DNA of 64,000 nucleotides, taken from assembly GCA_905221105.1 (NCBI GenBank), contig CAJNBW010000007.1, positions 1 through 64,000 of the forward strand, written 5' to 3'. Positions 8,229-63,186 of the stretch are shown here, piece by piece; the first letter of the stretch is position 1, and each line of letters begins with the position of its first letter. The translations under genes were made by a program, and so were the position numbers. The DNA is from a bacterium. Its GTDB lineage: Bacteria; Bacillota; Bacilli; Lactobacillales; Streptococcaceae. The notes under the pieces are model-generated. The model ran no database searches. It was given only the letters and a program-made list of their open reading frames with translations, and was not told the origin of the DNA.

Positions 8229-8380
8229 ATACTCTTCGAAAATCAAATTCAAACCACGTCAACGTCGCCTTGCCGTAGGTATGGTTACTGACTTCATCAG
8301 TTCTATCTACAACCTCAAAGCAGTGCTTTGAGCAGCCTGCGGCTAGTTTCCTAGTTTGCTCTTTGATTTTCATTGAGTAT
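8229..8380 (+). repeat. BOX element (A-B-C type)
   Basis: Contains CGTCAACGTCGCCTTGCCGT, close to the complement of the standard BOX-PCR primer site. It starts with ATACTCTTCGAAAATC and ends with TTTGATTTTCATTGAGTAT. At 152 bases it fits boxA plus one boxB plus boxC. It sits between the combox and the start of the Rpn gene. Confidence 0.9.
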
Positions 8381-8411
8381 AAGACTGTGGTATAATGAAA
8401 GGAGAGAAAGT

Positions 8412-46163: not shown

Positions 46164-46705
46164 AAAAAATAGCGGTTTTTGCCTCTGGTAATGGCTCAAA
46201 TTTTCAGGTGATTGCCGAAGAATTTCCAGTGGAGTTTGTTTTTTCAGACCATCGTGATGCCTATGTGCTGGAGCGTGCAGACAAGCTTGGCATTCTGTCC
46301 TATGCTTTTGAACTCAAGGAGTTTGAGAGCAAGGCAGACTACGAAGCAGCCCTTGTCGAACTCTTGGAAGAACACCAGATTGACTTGCTTTGCCTAGCAG
46401 GCTACATGAAAATCGTTGGGCCAACCTTATTGGCGGCTTATGAAGGTCGGATTATCAACATTCACCCAGCCTACCTGCCAGAATTTCCAGGAGCTCATGG
46501 GATTGAGGATGCTTGGAATGCTGGTGTTGCTGAGAGTGGCGTGACCATTCACTGGGTGGACTCAGGTGTGGATACAGGCAAGGTCATCAAACAAGTACGT
46601 GTGCCACGGCTGGCTGATGATACCATAGAAAGCTTTGAAGCTCGCATTCATGAGGCAGAGTACAAGTTGTATCCGGAAGTAGTGAAGGCTCTATTTACAG
46701 ATTGA
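46160..46705 (+). CDS. purN: GAR formyltransferase
   Basis: A 181-residue N10-formyl-THF-dependent enzyme. [11 protein letters not shown] at the start, [19 protein letters not shown] (catalytic Asn and His) and [11 protein letters not shown] are present. Translation is coupled to purM. Confidence 0.95.
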
Positions 46706-46788
46706 CTTTTTGTTGATTCATATGATATCTTTGATTTAAAATTGGAGTCAGTGATTGTTGAAGACGGCTTCAAACGGAGGTATTTGTA

Positions 46789-47298
46789 ATGTTAGAATCT
46801 AAAAAAACAACTCGATATGTATTTTATGTCTATCTGATTTTATTAACTTGGGGAATCTTATTTAAGTTTGAAACCAATCCTGAATTTATAGCATTTTTCT
46901 TAGCTCCAAGGTACATCAATTGGATTCCATTTTCAGAACCACTAATAGTAGATGGAAAAATTGTTTTTGCTGAAATGTTATTTAATTTGATTTCCTTTAT
47001 TCCATTAGGCGTTTGTTTCCCTCTGATAAAAACTAATTTATCTAGTTTAAGAATAGTCGGGACAGGTTTCTTGATTAGTTTATTGTTTGAGTGCTTACAG
47101 TATATTTTAGCAATAGGTATAACAGACGTAACGGATTTGACTTTAAATACGCTAGGTGTTTGTGTAGGCTTGCTGATTTATCAAATTTTTATAAGAGTGT
47201 TCAAATCACAGACTAGAAAATGGGTCAATATCTTAGGTATGCTTAGCCTTGGTTTTGCTTATTTTGTTTTACTGTTACTGCATTTAATTGGTGTTTAA
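46789..47298 (+). CDS. VanZ-family membrane protein
   Basis: A 169-residue protein with four or five hydrophobic segments. NWIPFSEP, FNLISFIPLGVCFPLI and FECLQYILAIGITDVTDLTLNTLG are the VanZ-like signature stretches. VanZ homologues affect teicoplanin or lipoglycopeptide sensitivity; the native role is unclear. It is more AT-rich than its pur neighbours. A homologue lies between purN and purH in pneumococcus too. Confidence 0.85.
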   Translation: MLESKKTTRYVFYVYLILLTWGILFKFETNPEFIAFFLAPRYINWIPFSEPLIVDGKIVFAEMLFNLISFIPLGVCFPLIKTNLSSLRIVGTGFLISLLFECLQYILAIGITDVTDLTLNTLGVCVGLLIYQIFIRVFKSQTRKWVNILGMLSLGFAYFVLLLLHLIGV

Positions 47299-47322
47299 CT
47301 AATGATTAAAAAGGAGAATATA

Positions 47323-48870
47323 ATGACTAAACGCGCCTTAATCAGCGTCTCAGACAAAGCGGGCATTGTTGAATTTGCCCAAGAACTTAAAAAACTTGGT
47401 TGGGAGATTATCTCGACAGGTGGAACCAAGATTGCCCTTGATAATGCTGGGGTGGAGACCATTGCGATTGATGATGTGACTGGTTTCCCAGAGATGATGG
47501 ACGGTCGTGTCAAGACCCTTCATCCAAATATACACGGTGGACTCCTCGCTCGTCGTGACTTGGATAGTCACCTGGAAGCGGCCAAAGACAATCAAATCGA
47601 TCTCATTGACCTTGTAGTGGTCAATCTCTACCCATTCAAGGAAACCATTCTCAAACCAGACGTGACGTACGCGGATGCGGTTGAGAACATCGATATCGGT
47701 GGGCCATCTATGCTTCGTTCAGCAGCTAAAAACCATGCCAGCGTGACGGTTGTGGTAGACCCTGCTGACTATGCAGTGGTTTTGGACGAGTTGTCAGCCA
47801 ATGGTGAAACGACTTACGAAACTCGCCAACGTCTGGCAGCCAAGGTTTTCCGTCACACAGCGGCTTATGATGCCTTGATTGCAGAGTATTTCACAGCTCA
47901 AGTGGGTGAAACAAAACCTGAAAAACTGACCTTGACCTATGACCTCAAGCAAGCTATGCGTTATGGGGAAAATCCTCAGCAGGATGCGGACTTCTACCAA
48001 AAAGCTTTGCCGACAGACTATTCGATTGCATCAGCCAAACAGCTCAACGGTAAGGAATTGTCCTTTAACAATATCCGTGATGCGGATGCGGCTATCCGTA
48101 TTATTCGCGATTTCAAAGACCGTCCAACCGTTGTGGCCCTCAAACACATGAATCCATGTGGAATCGGTCAGGCTGATGATATCGAAACTGCTTGGGATTA
48201 TGCCTATGAGTCTGATCCAGTGTCTATCTTTGGTGGAATTGTCGTTCTTAACCGTGAGGTGGATGCTGCGACAGCTGAAAAGATGCACGGTGTTTTCCTT
48301 GAAATCATTATTGCACCAAGCTATACAGATGAAGCGCTAGCCATTTTGACCAACAAAAAGAAAAACTTGCGTATCCTTGCCTTGCCATTTGACGCTCAAG
48401 ATGCTAGTGAAGTGGAAGCGGAGTACACAGGCGTGGTTGGTGGACTTCTCGTGCAAAACCAAGACGTGGTCAAAGAGAGCCCAGCTGACTGGCAAGTGGT
48501 TACCAAACGCCAACCAACGGAGACAGAGGCGACTGCCCTTGAGTTTGCTTGGAAGGCTATCAAGTATGTCAAATCAAACGGTATCATCGTGACTAACGAC
48601 CACATGACACTTGGTGTTGGCCCTGGTCAAACCAACCGTGTGGCCTCTGTCCGTATCGCCATTGACCAAGCTAAAGACCGTCTGGACGGCGCTGTTCTTG
48701 CTTCGGATGCCTTCTTCCCATTTGCGGATAACGTGGAAGAAATCGCCAAAGCAGGTATCAAGGCCATCATCCAGCCAGGTGGGTCCGTCCGTGACCAAGA
48801 GTCTATCGAAGCTGCGGATAAATATGGCTTGACCATGGTCTTTACAGGCGTGAGACATTTTAGACATTAA
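47323..48870 (+). CDS. purH: AICAR transformylase / IMP cyclohydrolase
   Basis: A 515-residue bifunctional enzyme for the last two steps to IMP. The N-terminal cyclohydrolase domain has [33 protein letters not shown] and [14 protein letters not shown]. The C-terminal transformylase has [11 protein letters not shown] and [12 protein letters not shown]. The ATG at 47323 follows AAAGGAG. The last 58 coding bases recur 2.1 kb downstream, after the AIPR gene. Confidence 0.96.
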
Positions 48871-48871
48871 G
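48813..48871 (+). repeat. direct repeat, left copy (3' end of purH)
   Basis: 59 bases ending at the purH stop codon plus one base, matching 50977-51035 at 57 of 59 positions. Both differences are synonymous third positions (ACC/ACT and GTC/GTA). Confidence 0.93.
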
Positions 48872-48943
48872 ATTTTATTCATTTTCCGTTAAATTTATTT
48901 TATCGTATACTAGTATTAATGATAAAAAATTGTTGAATATAGT

Positions 48944-48975
48944 AAAAGCGCTCAAGTTCAAAGTAGAGCGCTTTT
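48944..48975 (+). terminator. terminator between purH and the AIPR gene
   Basis: AAAAGCGCTC (48944-48953) pairs with GAGCGCTTTT (48966-48975). It separates the insertion from pur transcription and, being symmetric, may work both ways. Confidence 0.85.
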
Positions 48976-49058
48976 CAAATATTATTAAAATTTTATAGTT
49001 AATTTCTACAAATTATATAATTGAAATGTTATAATGTATATTGTATGGAGGATTAATT

Positions 49059-50870
49059 ATGTATAAGTACAAAATGTTAGAGCATGTTTTAGATTCTATT
49101 TGTTTAGAAGCTCCAGAACATCTGAAAAGATATAAGGAAGACAGTGATTCTAAGAAACTTCAGGCTAGATCATTAGCTTATATCCATTTACTTTTAAAAG
49201 CAAAATTTAATCTTACGTCTTTTGATGAAAGAGAAAGATATATTACTGATGGAGGATACGACGGAGGAATAGATGCGTATTATATTGATAAGGAAAATAA
49301 AATAATCTATTTTATTCAATCTAAATATCGCAATACTGAAGAAAATTTCTCAACTAAACCGATAAGTGTAGATGAAATCGTAAAAATGGAAGTCTCTAGA
49401 ATCACTAATGGAGAGGAGACAGATTCTAATGAAAATAAATATAATGGTAAGATATTAGGGTTAATTAGAAATCTACAGGAATTGGATCAGATTGCTAGGT
49501 ATGATTTTAAAATCATTCTATTAGCAAACGTAGATAATGATATTGAAAAAGTATTAGATAAGATATTAGGTTTTCCATATGAAATTTATAATTATAAAAG
49601 AGCATATGAGGAGCTAGTCTTTCCTATCTTGAGAGGTACTTGTCATAGGGCTACTGATATAACAGTTAATTTAAATCTAACATCTAGAAATTATACAATG
49701 GAGTACGAAGTAGAGGACGGGGAATTAAGTACTAATGTTCAACTCTTTTTCGTACCGACTATAGAAATCGCTAAATTGATGAGTGTACATAAAAATGCCA
49801 TTTTAGAATATAATCCTAGAAGTTATCTAGGGTTATCAAGAAATCCCGTTAATAAAGCTATCAAGGATCAGATTGTCAATGAGAATAATAACATGTTTTC
49901 ATTATTCAATAATGGCATTACAATATTATCTGACCAAACAGTGGTAGCTTCTAAGACAGGAAGAAAAGGGGTAGGGCAGCTTATTCTAAAAAATCCACAA
50001 ATTGTGAATGGAGGTCAAACTGCACATACTTTATCAGTTATTTATGAGGATTCTAATTATAGTGAAGACATATTTAAGAATAAAGAAGTTTTGGTGAAAA
50101 TTATTACCTTTGATGAGAATTTGAAGGATGAAAGTAGGAAGTTAAGTTTAATTGAACAGTTATCACAAGCTACAAATACTCAAAGCAAGATTGTGGAAGC
50201 AGACAGAAGATCAAATTTAGAGATTCAAATTGATCTTCAACGCTATTTATTCAATAAATTTGGCTATTGTTATCATAGAAAAACGGGTGAGTTTAATCAA
50301 GGAATAAGTAAAAAGTATCTATCTAATGATCAGATTATTGAGAGAGATATTTTTATTAGAGTTGCCTATGCAGTCAATGGGAACGTTGCTGAAGCTAGGA
50401 GATCTGGTGAAGAACGTTTGTTTAAAAATGAAAATTTTGAAAAATTTTTAAATACTTCAATTGGGGATGAGGGTTATGATAAATTGTTCTATTCTTTTAT
50501 TGTTCACAAGTATTTATCAAAAATTGAGAAGAATCCTTCAGAACAAGATGATAAGTATTCTACTAAAAATTATGGTAATGCGATAAGATACGGTAAATTT
50601 GCAATTGTATATGTAGTCTCTCGGAAGATAGAAGAATTAATTAATAACAAAGAGATCTCCGAAAAAATTGTCAGAGAGTTAACAGATAAAGTCCTTAATC
50701 AATGGAAAGAATTCGAAAATAAACAAATGAAAAAGGATAGCAATAGTCGTTACTTTACTAAGATTATTGACGATAAAGGAGTTACTAATTTTGAAAACAA
50801 CTTTGCAAACTATTATAAAGGAACTACTATAGATTCTGACCTGTCAAGTTATGAATTCAATTATCGGTAG
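49059..50870 (+). CDS. AIPR-family protein with a nuclease-like N terminus (putative phage defence)
   Basis: A 603-residue protein. Residues 60-90 (YDGGIDAYYID, then IYFIQSKYR, i.e. Asp72 and Gln87-Ser-Lys89) look like a PD-(D/E)XK nuclease fold of the Mrr type. The core at about 280-335 carries FSLFNNGITILSD and NPQIVNGGQTAHTL, typical of AIPR (abortive infection phage resistance) proteins. The gene is AT-rich with A/T-ending codons, unlike the pur genes around it. It has its own TATAAT (49030-49035) and TGGAGGATT before the ATG at 49059. The defence role is inferred from the family; no partner gene is present. Confidence 0.82.
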   Translation: MYKYKMLEHVLDSICLEAPEHLKRYKEDSDSKKLQARSLAYIHLLLKAKFNLTSFDERERYITDGGYDGGIDAYYIDKENKIIYFIQSKYRNTEENFSTKPISVDEIVKMEVSRITNGEETDSNENKYNGKILGLIRNLQELDQIARYDFKIILLANVDNDIEKVLDKILGFPYEIYNYKRAYEELVFPILRGTCHRATDITVNLNLTSRNYTMEYEVEDGELSTNVQLFFVPTIEIAKLMSVHKNAILEYNPRSYLGLSRNPVNKAIKDQIVNENNNMFSLFNNGITILSDQTVVASKTGRKGVGQLILKNPQIVNGGQTAHTLSVIYEDSNYSEDIFKNKEVLVKIITFDENLKDESRKLSLIEQLSQATNTQSKIVEADRRSNLEIQIDLQRYLFNKFGYCYHRKTGEFNQGISKKYLSNDQIIERDIFIRVAYAVNGNVAEARRSGEERLFKNENFEKFLNTSIGDEGYDKLFYSFIVHKYLSKIEKNPSEQDDKYSTKNYGNAIRYGKFAIVYVVSRKIEELINNKEISEKIVRELTDKVLNQWKEFENKQMKKDSNSRYFTKIIDDKGVTNFENNFANYYKGTTIDSDLSSYEFNYR

Positions 50871-50976
50871 TAGTATTTTCACCTAAATACCTTAAAAAAT
50901 TTTTAAATTTCTAAAATCATTAGTGAGGCAATCCTAGTTGTTACCTTTTTTATGCATGATGTTAGAAGTCCACTTA

Positions 50977-51035
50977 TGCGGATAAATATGGCTTGACTAT
51001 GGTATTTACAGGCGTGAGACATTTTAGACATTAAG
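50977..51035 (+). repeat. direct repeat, right copy (orphan purH 3' end)
   Basis: Second copy of the purH end, with no coding frame in front. It is directly followed by a terminator that looks like the natural end of purH. The 50871-50976 stretch before it is AT-rich and shows no gene. Confidence 0.93.
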
Positions 51036-51038
51036 AAG

Positions 51039-51073
51039 ATGAAAGGGAAGAAAACAGTTTCTTTCCTTTTTTT
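51039..51073 (+). terminator. likely original purH terminator
   Basis: GAAAGG-GAAGAAA pairs with TTTCTT-TCCTTT around ACAG, then a T run. Confidence 0.7.
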
Positions 51074-51102
51074 GGTTTAAAATGCTAAGTGAAACAAGAT
51101 TT

Positions 51103-51124
51103 AAACGAACGTTTATGGTATAAT
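51103..51124 (+). promoter_or_regulatory. purD promoter with PurR-like palindrome
   Basis: AAACGAACGTTT (51103-51114), containing CGAAC, abuts TATAAT (51119-51124). A regulator bound there would overlap the promoter. Confidence 0.45.
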
Positions 51125-51156
51125 GTTAATAAATAATTCGTAAAAGAGGTTGGAAG

Positions 51157-52419
51157 ATGAAGCTGTTAGTTGTCGGTTCGGGTGGTCGTGAACATGCGAT
51201 TGCTAAGAAGTTACTTGAATCAAAAGACGTTGAACAAGTCTTTGTGGCTCCTGGAAATGACGGGATGACTCTGGATGGTCTGGAATTGGTGAATATCTCT
51301 ATTTCCGAACATTCCAAATTGATTGAGTTTGCAAAAGCCAACGATGTTGCTTGGACCTTTATAGGGCCAGATGACGCCCTTGCAGCTGGTATTGTGGATG
51401 ATTTCCATGAAGCGGGTCTCAAAGCCTTTGGTCCGACAAGATTGGCAGCGGAGCTGGAGTGGTCCAAGGATTTTGCCAAGGAAATCATGGTCAAATACGG
51501 CGTTCCGACGGCAACCTATGGCACATTCTCAGACTTTGAGGAAGCCAAGGCCTATATCGAAAAGCATGGTGCGCCTATCGTAGTCAAGGCGGATGGCTTG
51601 GCGCTTGGAAAAGGTGTCGTCGTTGCTGAGACGGTTGAGAAAGCGGTCGAAGCCGCTCACGAGATGCTTTTGGACAATAAATTCGGTGATTCTGGTGCGC
51701 GTGTAGTCATCGAGGAATTCCTTGACGGGGAAGAGTTCTCTCTCTTTGCCTTTGTCAATGGGGACAAGTTATACATCATGCCGACAGCGCAAGACCACAA
51801 ACGTGCCTACGATGGCGATAAGGGTCCTAACACGGGAGGTATGGGAGCATATGCACCAGTTCCTCACTTGCCACAGAGTGTAATAGATACAGCGGTTGAG
51901 ACTATTGTCAAGCCAGTCCTTGAGGGCATGATCCAGGAAGGGCGCCCCTATCTCGGTGTCCTTTACGCTGGTCTTATCTTAACAGCTGATGGACCGAAAG
52001 TCATTGAGTTCAACTCTCGTTTTGGAGATCCTGAAACTCAGATTATCCTGCCTCGTTTAACATCTGACTTTGCGCAAAATATCACGGATATTCTCGATGG
52101 CAAGGAGCCGAATATCAAGTGGACGGACAAGGGTGTGACTCTGGGTGTGGTTGTCGCATCAAACGGTTACCCACTGGCTTATGAGAAGGGTGTCAAGTTG
52201 CCATCAAAAACCGAGGGAGACATCATCACCTACTATGCAGGGGCTAAGTTTGCGGAAAATAGCAGAGCACTGCTCTCAAACGGAGGCCGTGTTTATATGC
52301 TCGTCACCACGGCAGAGACCGTCAAAGACGGACAAAACATTATTTACAGTGAACTCGCCCAACAAAACACAGAAGGCCTCTTTTGCCGAACAGATATCGG
52401 AAGCAAGGCGATTAGATAA
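51157..52419 (+). CDS. purD: GAR synthetase
   Basis: A 420-residue ATP-grasp enzyme joining phosphoribosylamine and glycine. MKLLVVGSGGREHAIAKKL at the start, KADGLALGKGVVVAET in the ATP-grasp fold and EFNSRFGDPETQ near the metal site are diagnostic. AAGAGGTTGGAAG precedes the ATG. Confidence 0.96.
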   Translation: MKLLVVGSGGREHAIAKKLLESKDVEQVFVAPGNDGMTLDGLELVNISISEHSKLIEFAKANDVAWTFIGPDDALAAGIVDDFHEAGLKAFGPTRLAAELEWSKDFAKEIMVKYGVPTATYGTFSDFEEAKAYIEKHGAPIVVKADGLALGKGVVVAETVEKAVEAAHEMLLDNKFGDSGARVVIEEFLDGEEFSLFAFVNGDKLYIMPTAQDHKRAYDGDKGPNTGGMGAYAPVPHLPQSVIDTAVETIVKPVLEGMIQEGRPYLGVLYAGLILTADGPKVIEFNSRFGDPETQIILPRLTSDFAQNITDILDGKEPNIKWTDKGVTLGVVVASNGYPLAYEKGVKLPSKTEGDIITYYAGAKFAENSRALLSNGGRVYMLVTTAETVKDGQNIIYSELAQQNTEGLFCRTDIGSKAIR

Positions 52420-52433
52420 AGATATAAGAATAA

Positions 52434-52632
52434 CGCGACAAAGTCGCTAAACACGATAATGGTCGTATGGTTTGCGAGCATTAGCGAGCTAATATAGAAC
52501 AATCACCGCCGTTGTGAAAGAACGATTGGAAGATAATCCAATCGTTCAGGGAAATTGGAAGACCTTGGGCTTCCAATTTAGGCATGAGACACCTTGGTGG
52601 CTGCTGCCGTCCCTCACAACTTAAGGTGATTG
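52434..52632 (+). ncRNA. candidate structured RNA between purD and purE
   Basis: No gene, but dense base pairing. GCGAC/GTCGC and ATTAG/CTAAT hairpins come first. A closed multi-arm fold follows: outer helix CAATCACC (52500-52507) with GGTGATTG (52625-52632); second helix GTTGTGA (52511-52517) with TCACAAC (52614-52620); a perfect 10-bp hairpin 52521-52530 / 52537-52546; a second perfect 10-bp hairpin 52552-52561 / 52570-52579; and a weaker third arm GGCA/TGCC (52581-52608). purE starts 29 bases later. I know no Rfam family that fits. Confidence 0.6.
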
Positions 52633-52660
52633 AAAAAAGAAAGGAAAGAAAAGGAAAATT

Positions 52661-53152
52661 ATGACTAAACCAATTATTTCCATCATCATGGGCTCAAAAT
52701 CCGACTGGGCAACCATGCAAAAAACAGCAGAAGTCCTAGACCGCTTCGGTGTAGCCTACGAAAAGAAGGTTGTCTCTGCCCACCGCACACCAGACCTCAT
52801 GTTCAGACATGCCGAAGAGGCTCGTAGTCGTGGCATCAAGGTCATTATCGCAGGTGCTGGTGGCGCAGCCCATTTGCCAGGTATGGTCGCAGCTAAAACA
52901 ACCCTTCCTGTCATCGGGGTGCCTGTCAAATCGCGTGCCCTTAGTGGCGTGGATTCACTCTACTCTATCGTGCAGATGCCGAGTGGCGTACCGGTTGCGA
53001 CTATGGCTATCGGGGAAGCTGGTGCGACTAATGCTGCCCTCTTCGCTCTCCGTCTTCTTTCAGTAGAAGATCAGGCTATCGCGACAGCGTTGGCGGATTT
53101 CGCAGAAGAACAAGGAAAAATCGCAGAGGAGTCTACAAATGAGCTCATCTAA
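52661..53152 (+). CDS. purE: N5-CAIR mutase
   Basis: A 163-residue class I Pur[19 protein letters not shown] and [21 protein letters not shown] are active-site stretches. It pairs with PurK, whose gene overlaps its 3' end by 14 bases. Confidence 0.96.
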
Positions 53153-62875: not shown

Positions 62876-63069
62876 TACTCTTCGAAAATCTCTTCAAACC
62901 ATGCTAGTGTCGCCTTGCCGTATAGATGTTACTGACTTCGTCAGTTCTATCTGCAACCTCAAAACAGTGTTTTTAGCTGACTTCGTCAGTTCTATCCACA
63001 ACCTCAAAGCAGTGCTTTGAGCAGCCTGCGGCTAGCTTCCTAGTTTGCTCTTTGATTTTCATTGAGTAT
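62875..63069 (+). repeat. BOX element (A-B-B-C type)
   Basis: 195 bases with boxA, two TGACTTCGTCAGTTCTATC-type boxB units (about 62932 and 62980) and boxC ending TTTGATTTTCATTGAGTAT. It starts in the agaS stop codon. Confidence 0.9.
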
Positions 63070-63186
63070 AAGACAGTGTTTATGAATTCTTGACAAGAGG
63101 ATTTGTAAATTATCAGATAAACCATAGATTGTCAGTAGGCTTTCTATGGTTTGTTTGCTTGAGAGAAATAGTAAAAGGAGAACAGA

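Follow-up and report, generated by a model that had tools for sequence, protein, structure and literature searches.

How does a gene for a probable defence protein come to lie between two purine genes, with the gene in front of it intact and the last bases of that gene repeated behind it? The question is raised by a locus in contig CAJNBW010000007.1 of the Streptococcaceae assembly GCA_905221105.1, of which positions 1 to 64,000 were analyzed (hereafter, the window). Between purH and purD, an open reading frame (ORF) encodes a member of the AIPR family; the match to Pfam AIPR (PF10592) has an E-value of 1.2e-35 and scores 124.1 bits against a cut-off of 25. At about 0.28-0.31, the GC content of the insert is below that of the pur genes, which is about 0.45-0.50. 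A self-BLAST of the window recovered a direct repeat (58 of 60 positions identical, spacing 2164, E 2.3e-21), which consists of the last 58 nt of purH and 2 further bases; its second copy follows the AIPR gene. The two differences between the copies fall at third codon positions of purH (ACC/ACT and GTC/GTA) and are synonymous.

The original prediction, made from the letters of the window, had described the AT-rich AIPR gene, the duplicated purH end with its synonymous differences, and an intact purH, and all of this was borne out. It had also assigned the AIPR gene a terminator and a promoter of its own. The terminator is instead the ancestral one of purH, found behind purH in the 40 empty-site junction types listed. 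Because this is the purH terminator of mitis-type empty sites, the second purH end and the DNA beyond it correspond to the original purH-purD gap. A promoter-like match to the consensus (10 of 12 positions) is present upstream of the AIPR gene; however, it is only one of 21 such matches, against 13.9 in shuffled sequences.

A hotspot at the 3' end of purH

The AIPR locus is one case of a hotspot at the purH 3' end. We searched 284 genomes of the nearest genome's genus (referred to by G numbers) with the 60-base purH end and obtained a match in 237; among the matches listed, at least 16 genomes had two (G219, with two matches and no place, was left out). The purH flank was taken from 138 genomes among the matches listed, two-copy genomes being preferred, and was readable in 137. 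The sample comprises one genome per species and is non-random, so the counts are not an unbiased frequency. G018 and G175 were added for their AIPR matches, and G018 was dropped, its purH lying outside its stretch. L053 (G192) and L056 (G042), taken for AIPR matches, stand outside the census counts, and the census leaves out the listed genomes G058, G258, G261, and G263.

Named examples of an empty site are S. oralis BCC10 and S. infantis D6t1. The site was empty or nearly so in 77 of the 137 genomes; the purH-purD gap measured 120-123 bp in 75 of these, 126 bp in one, and 203 bp in one. The other 60 sites were non-empty at purH. One of them (G095) is at a contig edge, seven (G021-G026, G242) have a background without purD in view downstream, and ten belong to a clade with its own CHAP gene at the site. 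The gap exceeded 900 bp in 45 of the 122 genomes in which both genes are visible (35 of 112 once the CHAP-gene clade is set aside); for purD-purE, the gap that follows, this was so in 3 of 93. At all 60 non-empty sites, purH keeps its final codons intact (up to 80 were checked). The original prediction had looked to relatives for empty sites with one purH end and a short gap, and for other cargo between two purH ends; both exist, and the relatives do not all carry the same gene and repeat at this place.

In 18 genomes and the window, the cargo is followed by a second purH end, or tail, of 13-336 nt. Cargo was named by the hidden Markov model (HMM) match of one representative per BLAST cluster, and not every ORF is covered. 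Tail sites carry AIPR (window and G097; G124 has a reversed AIPR gene beside an rve-type transposase), PARIS-like AriA/AriB (G070, G106, G209, G114, and G220; G202 and G125 by remnant), a TetR/HXXEE pair (G116, G123, G145, G146, and G149), a protein designated c13 on its own (G015; G127 by remnant), AbiL-like (G027), PDC-M12 (G103), PDC-M62 (G064), an AAA protein with a weak IetA match (G020), and a DUF6119 protein (G223). Tail-less sites carry a helicase-DUF2290 insertion (G109), a GmrSD/HEC-06-like enzyme (G249), DpnII with methylases (G059), DpnI (G256 and its cluster mate G065), and a three-gene operon ending in a RES-domain protein, the first gene of which matches the PADLOC model 'cll' (E 7e-14). 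Varied, putatively defensive cargo (as labeled by these HMM matches) thus shares one conserved position with empty sites, as is characteristic of a defence hotspot. The TetR/HXXEE pair has no PADLOC match; therefore, known defence genes are not the only cargo of the site.

Three families were searched over the 284 genomes, and their places were compared with that of purH. All ten RES-operon matches (at least 65% identity), all eight AriB genomes (at least 64%), and all eight HXXEE genomes (at least 65%) lie within about 5 kb behind purH, as do two further HXXEE matches at 49%. Four HXXEE matches at 56% behave differently: those of G082 and the second of G274 are elsewhere, and those of G086 and G133 are on contigs other than that of purH. 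The comparison covers these matches of the three families.

The RES operon (L070:492-3367 in G131) has relatives in G064, G077, G080, G108, G121, G122, G128, G192, and G201; all ten strong matches of its middle gene are downstream of purH, and it has no purH tail of its own. It is possibly an undescribed defence or toxin system. The c13 protein (L052:5113-5874; 254 aa) matched no Pfam or PADLOC model and has relatives at purH in G015, G127, G070, G209, G202, and G125; it seems to travel as its own purH cassette and to stand behind PARIS in five genomes. In the insert of G070 (L051), AriA and AriB are each split into two open frames, which suggests decay of the PARIS-like system. Distant AIPR-like matches near pur genes were found downstream of purE in G229 (L054, 4681-5673) and G175 (L057, 8145-8291), and upstream of purD in G018 (L055, 8281-9231). 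The AIPR relatives on plasmids (19 records) and phages (3 records) are all below 60% identity.

Alignment of the purH end to the insert gave scores of at most 12 at tail-less sites and of 12 to 143 at tail sites. The lowest tail scores (12 and 13, in G114 and G220) were accepted because these tails end at the purH stop and continue into the native flank. The remnants in G202, G125, and G127 were recognized by eye only (scores 9-10, within chance), as was a 10-nt remnant in G195 (score 11). The 5' edge of the tail is constant for each joint and differs by cargo; there are about 12 joints in all, with edges at approximately -13, -24, -58, -63/69, -76, -79/83, -80, -81, -135, -232, and -336 relative to the stop, and one that is decayed. 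In three backgrounds, the tails run on into the recipient's own downstream DNA. The sequence TTTTAGACATTAAG, with at most one mismatch, has 16 matches in the 120,742 positions of filled purH-purD gaps; 14 are at terminal tails, and 2 are at an inner joint between PARIS and c13.

In the 13 of 19 tail loci whose tail measures at least 51 nt, the mean identity between the two purH ends of a genome is 0.897. Between the purH ends of different genomes with empty sites, identity is 0.915 (SD 0.037) at 58 nt and 0.87-0.91 at other lengths; for G103 the two-copy value is valid and the class means are not, most loci being without 336 nt upstream. When the 138 purH ends are ranked as matches to a tail, the upstream end of the same genome comes 33rd or lower in 10 of the 13 loci; the exceptions are the window (rank 2), G020 (5), and G146 (15), with ties unresolved. 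The value for the window, 0.966, lies at the 95th percentile of the between-genome background; therefore, its 97% identity is no proof of a foreign end, and the window alone does not decide the origin of the copies. Its upstream end is identical over 60 of 60 positions to the purH ends of G095 and G101, and its tail, over the 58 nt to the stop, matches the empty-site purH end of G001 at 57 of 58. The window and G097 share the AIPR joint at -58; however, their tails are different alleles, and that of G097 resembles other genomes. The suggestion in the original prediction that a purH end came from another lineage thus draws its support from the 13 loci, where the two ends differ as much as those of different species, and not from the window.

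Proposed formation and spread of the cassettes

The TetR/HXXEE pair is found at the site both with and without a tail. In G274 and G111 it stands directly behind purH with the same left edge, and the scores for a second end (11 and 10) are within chance. These two genomes align with G116, G123, and G149 without a break from inside purH through the cassette of about 1.45 kb; the aligned stretch measures 1576-1577 bp and has 86.7-88.0% identity. The five tail-bearing genomes show three types of right joint, that of G149 being a variant of the first. A homologous purH side combined with a variable other side is what homology-facilitated illegitimate recombination would be expected to leave. Variable non-homologous joints on one side make up the approximately 12 joints, and a donor collinear on the other side was found for the TetR/HXXEE cassette only. 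In S. orisratti DSM 15617, distant homologues of the pair (64-68%) and a PDC-S49 gene occupy the site without a tail.

We favor, with a probability of roughly 0.55, a reading in which homology-facilitated illegitimate recombination during transformation would form each cassette and recombination in purH would spread the cassettes. A cell would take up DNA of a relative in which the cassette already stands directly behind purH. The purH side would recombine by homology, and the far end of the cassette would be joined illegitimately to a point within the 3' region of the recipient's purH. With the imported end, purH would still encode an intact enzyme; the displaced end of the recipient would persist downstream of the cargo, a relic still attached to its original downstream DNA. 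The unit so formed could pass from strain to strain through recombination both in purH and in either the tail or the genes downstream, and further cassettes could enter in front of old ones. Because the tail runs into each recipient's own downstream DNA, the downstream copy is more likely the displaced native end and the upstream copy the import; the alleles of today give no direct view of this.

Three pairs of genomes bear on the spread of formed units. Between G116 and G123, the cargo is 98% identical (99% in its last 300 bp), the tail 92%, and purH just upstream 88%; the rise in differences at the tail has a Fisher p of 0.003 (one pair, uncorrected). Between G128 and G131, the gap with the RES operon is 99% identical and the flanks are about 89-90%. 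In G070 and G209, the end of the cargo and the intergenic DNA are 98-99% identical (23 of 25 in the short tail), and divergence begins with purD (90%), as expected for a recombination tract.

Five of the PARIS loci consist of two cassettes in a row: AriA-AriB, a remnant of a purH tail, c13, and a second tail or remnant. In G015 and G127, c13 stands behind purH without AriA/AriB, and the similarity of this DNA to the PARIS loci sets in within the remnant, 11-12 nt ahead of the purH stop. This inner remnant has at most one mismatch to TTTTAGACATTAAG in G202 and G209 and is more decayed in G070, G106, and G125. More tentatively, at somewhat less than even odds, the purH end may be a docking handle for integrase-free mobile defence cassettes, each with a purH fragment on its right side. 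Any streptococcus that is competent and has purH could then accept them by recombination, whatever lies downstream; the cassettes would stack, and recombination between purH ends could remove them cleanly and leave an intact empty site.

Several observations weigh against formation by illegitimate joining and spread through purH. The flanks of the G116-G123 and G128-G131 pairs are on both sides no more alike than background, and the donor tract to be expected in purH is not seen; later recombination could have erased it. Among the sites compared, no donor-type site was found for the AIPR cassette. Microhomology at the joints is not shown, the donor-type sequences being about 10-15% diverged and the joints not exactly readable. 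Wherever it is seen, the cargo of tail sites starts 0-12 nt after the purH stop, which illegitimate joining alone leaves unexplained. The RES, helicase-DUF2290, and DpnII insertions are tail-less, as are six occupied sites in relatives that include S. suis and S. orisratti (scores 9-11). Both purH ends are clade-like in G146 and G149, and in G064 the upstream end is clade-like and the tail is not; it is because of this allele result that we put the odds at 0.55 rather than at 0.6.

Clade-like upstream ends would fit a different route, Campbell-type integration, in which a circular DNA with cargo and a purH 3' fragment enters by one homologous crossover in purH. This would give the same structure and the same sharp borders, with recipient DNA on both outer flanks; however, the purH fragment of every circle would need to end almost exactly at the stop codon. 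The cassette of G274 and G111 is linear with purH and has no such fragment, and no plasmid record was found with a purH fragment beside cargo. This route survives best among the alternatives, and we still regard it as unlikely.

Next in order, and also unlikely, is site-specific integration, with the purH end as attachment site, the repeats as its left and right copies (attL and attR), and an integrase that acted in trans or was lost, as in a remnant similar to a cis-mobilizable element (CIME). The start of the cargo 0-12 nt after the stop, the intact purH product, and the sharp appearance of the cassette borders are all in keeping with it. An attachment site should have a constant core; instead, the tails have about 12 different 5' edges at 13 to 336 nt, and one cassette has three types of right joint. 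By eye, no motif common to the cargo ends was seen. In agreement with the original prediction, which had noted that no integrase is present, no Phage_integrase (PF00589) match lies within 25 kb of purH in the 21 genomes with a tail or remnant, as far as the contigs, some of them short, reach; the match list extends below the family cut-off, and serine recombinases were not searched. The nearest such match is about 29 kb from purH, in G103. As possible vehicles, phages and plasmids were both rejected: the purH end has no match in 50,697 phage records, and its two matches in 72,556 plasmid records are both annotated purH.

It is improbable that the arrangement is old, inherited or homogenized, and that the hotspot is no more than a tolerant gap hit by unrelated insertions. 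Tail-less insertions do occur in the same gap, and Sekizaki and colleagues reportedly concluded for S. suis that integration was incidental and without repeats; however, the neighboring gap is rarely filled, and three cargo families are locked to purH over the 284 genomes. Least probable of all is a duplication of the purH end on insertion, caused by the cassette or by a transposase-like process and followed by drift of the copies, since, despite an architecture shared with the long target duplication of H. pylori restriction-modification genes and 97% identical copies in the window, the ends in the 13 loci are on average as different as those of different species and 10 of these loci have an own upstream end that ranks low against the tail.

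The window cassette and its protein

The features of the window locus are collected in Table 1. The AIPR protein also matches the PADLOC AbiU model (E 7.5e-30), the match being confined to residues 244-566 and not full length. Members of the PD-(D/E)XK superfamily have a nuclease fold with one or more acidic residues and a (D/E/Q)-x-K pair, and the N-terminal part of the AIPR protein is predicted to form a PD-(D/E)XK-like domain. Searched by sequence against solved structures, neither the protein nor its 49-sequence profile had a match at E 1, and Foldseek returned no match at E 0.001. Judged from predicted fold and family, the protein is probably a nuclease acting in phage defence. A left edge similar to that of the window cassette was seen by eye in G124. 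No RNA family reached its gathering threshold in positions 46600-53000.

Table 1. Features of the purH-purD locus in the window; the AIPR ORF is given from its ATG to its stop.
Feature	Position	Strand	Basis or remark
purH, intact; its last 58 nt are the upstream copy	47323..48870	+	ORF
Upstream purH 3' end, repeat copy 1	48813..48872	+	Direct repeat
Left end of the cassette	48871..49058	+	Hairpin at about 48945-48974 behind purH; promoter-like match at 48992-49021
AIPR-family protein, 603 aa	49059..50870	+	Pfam AIPR at residues 249-556
Predicted PD-(D/E)XK-like N-terminal domain	AIPR residues 1-197		D72, Q87, and K89 invariant in 49 sequences
Downstream purH 3' end (tail), repeat copy 2, without the rest of purH	50977..51036	+	
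Ancestral purH terminator, now behind the AIPR gene	51041..51070	+	Empty-site comparison
purD, right flank	51157..52419	+	

Between purN and purH, the window contains a small VanZ-like gene (46789-47298) that scores well below the cut-offs of the VanZ resistance models. A 102-bp repeat, which we take to be possibly a BOX- or RUP-type element, occurs at 8288-8389 and 62977-63078, about 54.7 kb apart, with 96% identity. One further pair from the self-BLAST list, at about 14.7 and 17.9 kb, was followed as a candidate for a second repeat-flanked case; it represents surface-protein paralogues. Outside the window, G092 (L025) has an empty site and a purH that is broken into two frames near codon 480.

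Comparison with known systems

The purH-purD site itself is reportedly known from S. suis, where Sekizaki and colleagues are said to have described, in 2001 and 2005, a purHD locus with SsuDAT1I and other foreign genes. The likeness extends to the site, to low-GC foreign genes that include restriction systems, with DpnII- and DpnI-type genes among those of the present census, and to empty sites in other strains. In that work, long repeats were reportedly not mentioned, and illegitimate recombination within the gap was put forward; in contrast, the cases here carry a second purH end, reach other species, and can stack. The original prediction had spoken of a candidate for an undescribed hotspot, which, given these reports, is only partly true; the tails, the donors, and the stacking seem new. 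Among open-licence papers for Streptococcus, searched by title and start of abstract, no description of a purH site with defence cargo was found. In the portions consulted, Okura et al. 2017 (PMC5398294) focuses on another locus, rpiA-trmE, PMC3784515 deals with merodiploids formed by transformation, and PMC7593597 with a spa locus that has an AIPR gene.

Restriction-modification genes of H. pylori that inserted with long target duplication (Nobusato et al. 2000, as described in passages of PMC1643837 and PMC3154945) likewise are defence genes between two direct copies of a target in a naturally competent species. The copies at purH, however, differ like alleles of different lineages, and one cassette also occurs without a second copy; the repeat is therefore unlike the duplication of one target. 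The double purH end suggests an explanation, open to testing, for the long-target-duplication pattern seen at restriction genes of that other competent species.

Homology-facilitated illegitimate recombination has been proposed for the type VI secretion system (T6SS) immunity arrays of V. cholerae (passages of PMC5361080), which share with the purH site one homologous anchor, one illegitimate joint, displaced 3' ends, and stacking. They differ in that most of the purH cargo probably serves phage defence, that the anchor belongs to purine synthesis, and that the end displaced is what is left of a housekeeping gene. The double purH end would be a fossil of single events, in which the homologous side, the illegitimate joint, and the order of arrival of the cassettes can be read. 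In other competent bacteria, new defence genes could be found by looking for core genes whose own 3' end recurs behind cargo; at this site, the candidates are c13, the RES-domain operon, and the DUF6119 protein.

The route by which, without integrases, defence genes arrive at fixed chromosomal hotspots is an open question, and the excerpts of PMC10250203 leave it to future work. In the cDHS1 and cDHS2 loci of P. aeruginosa, as presented there, fixed core genes enclose a variable set of defence genes (1 to 224 kb in the case of cDHS1); like the purH site, these loci are not obviously part of one mobile element. Those excerpts mention no footprint at the joints of cDHS, whereas the tail-type inserts behind purH are mostly 1-4 kb long and have a joint that is marked by the purH tail.

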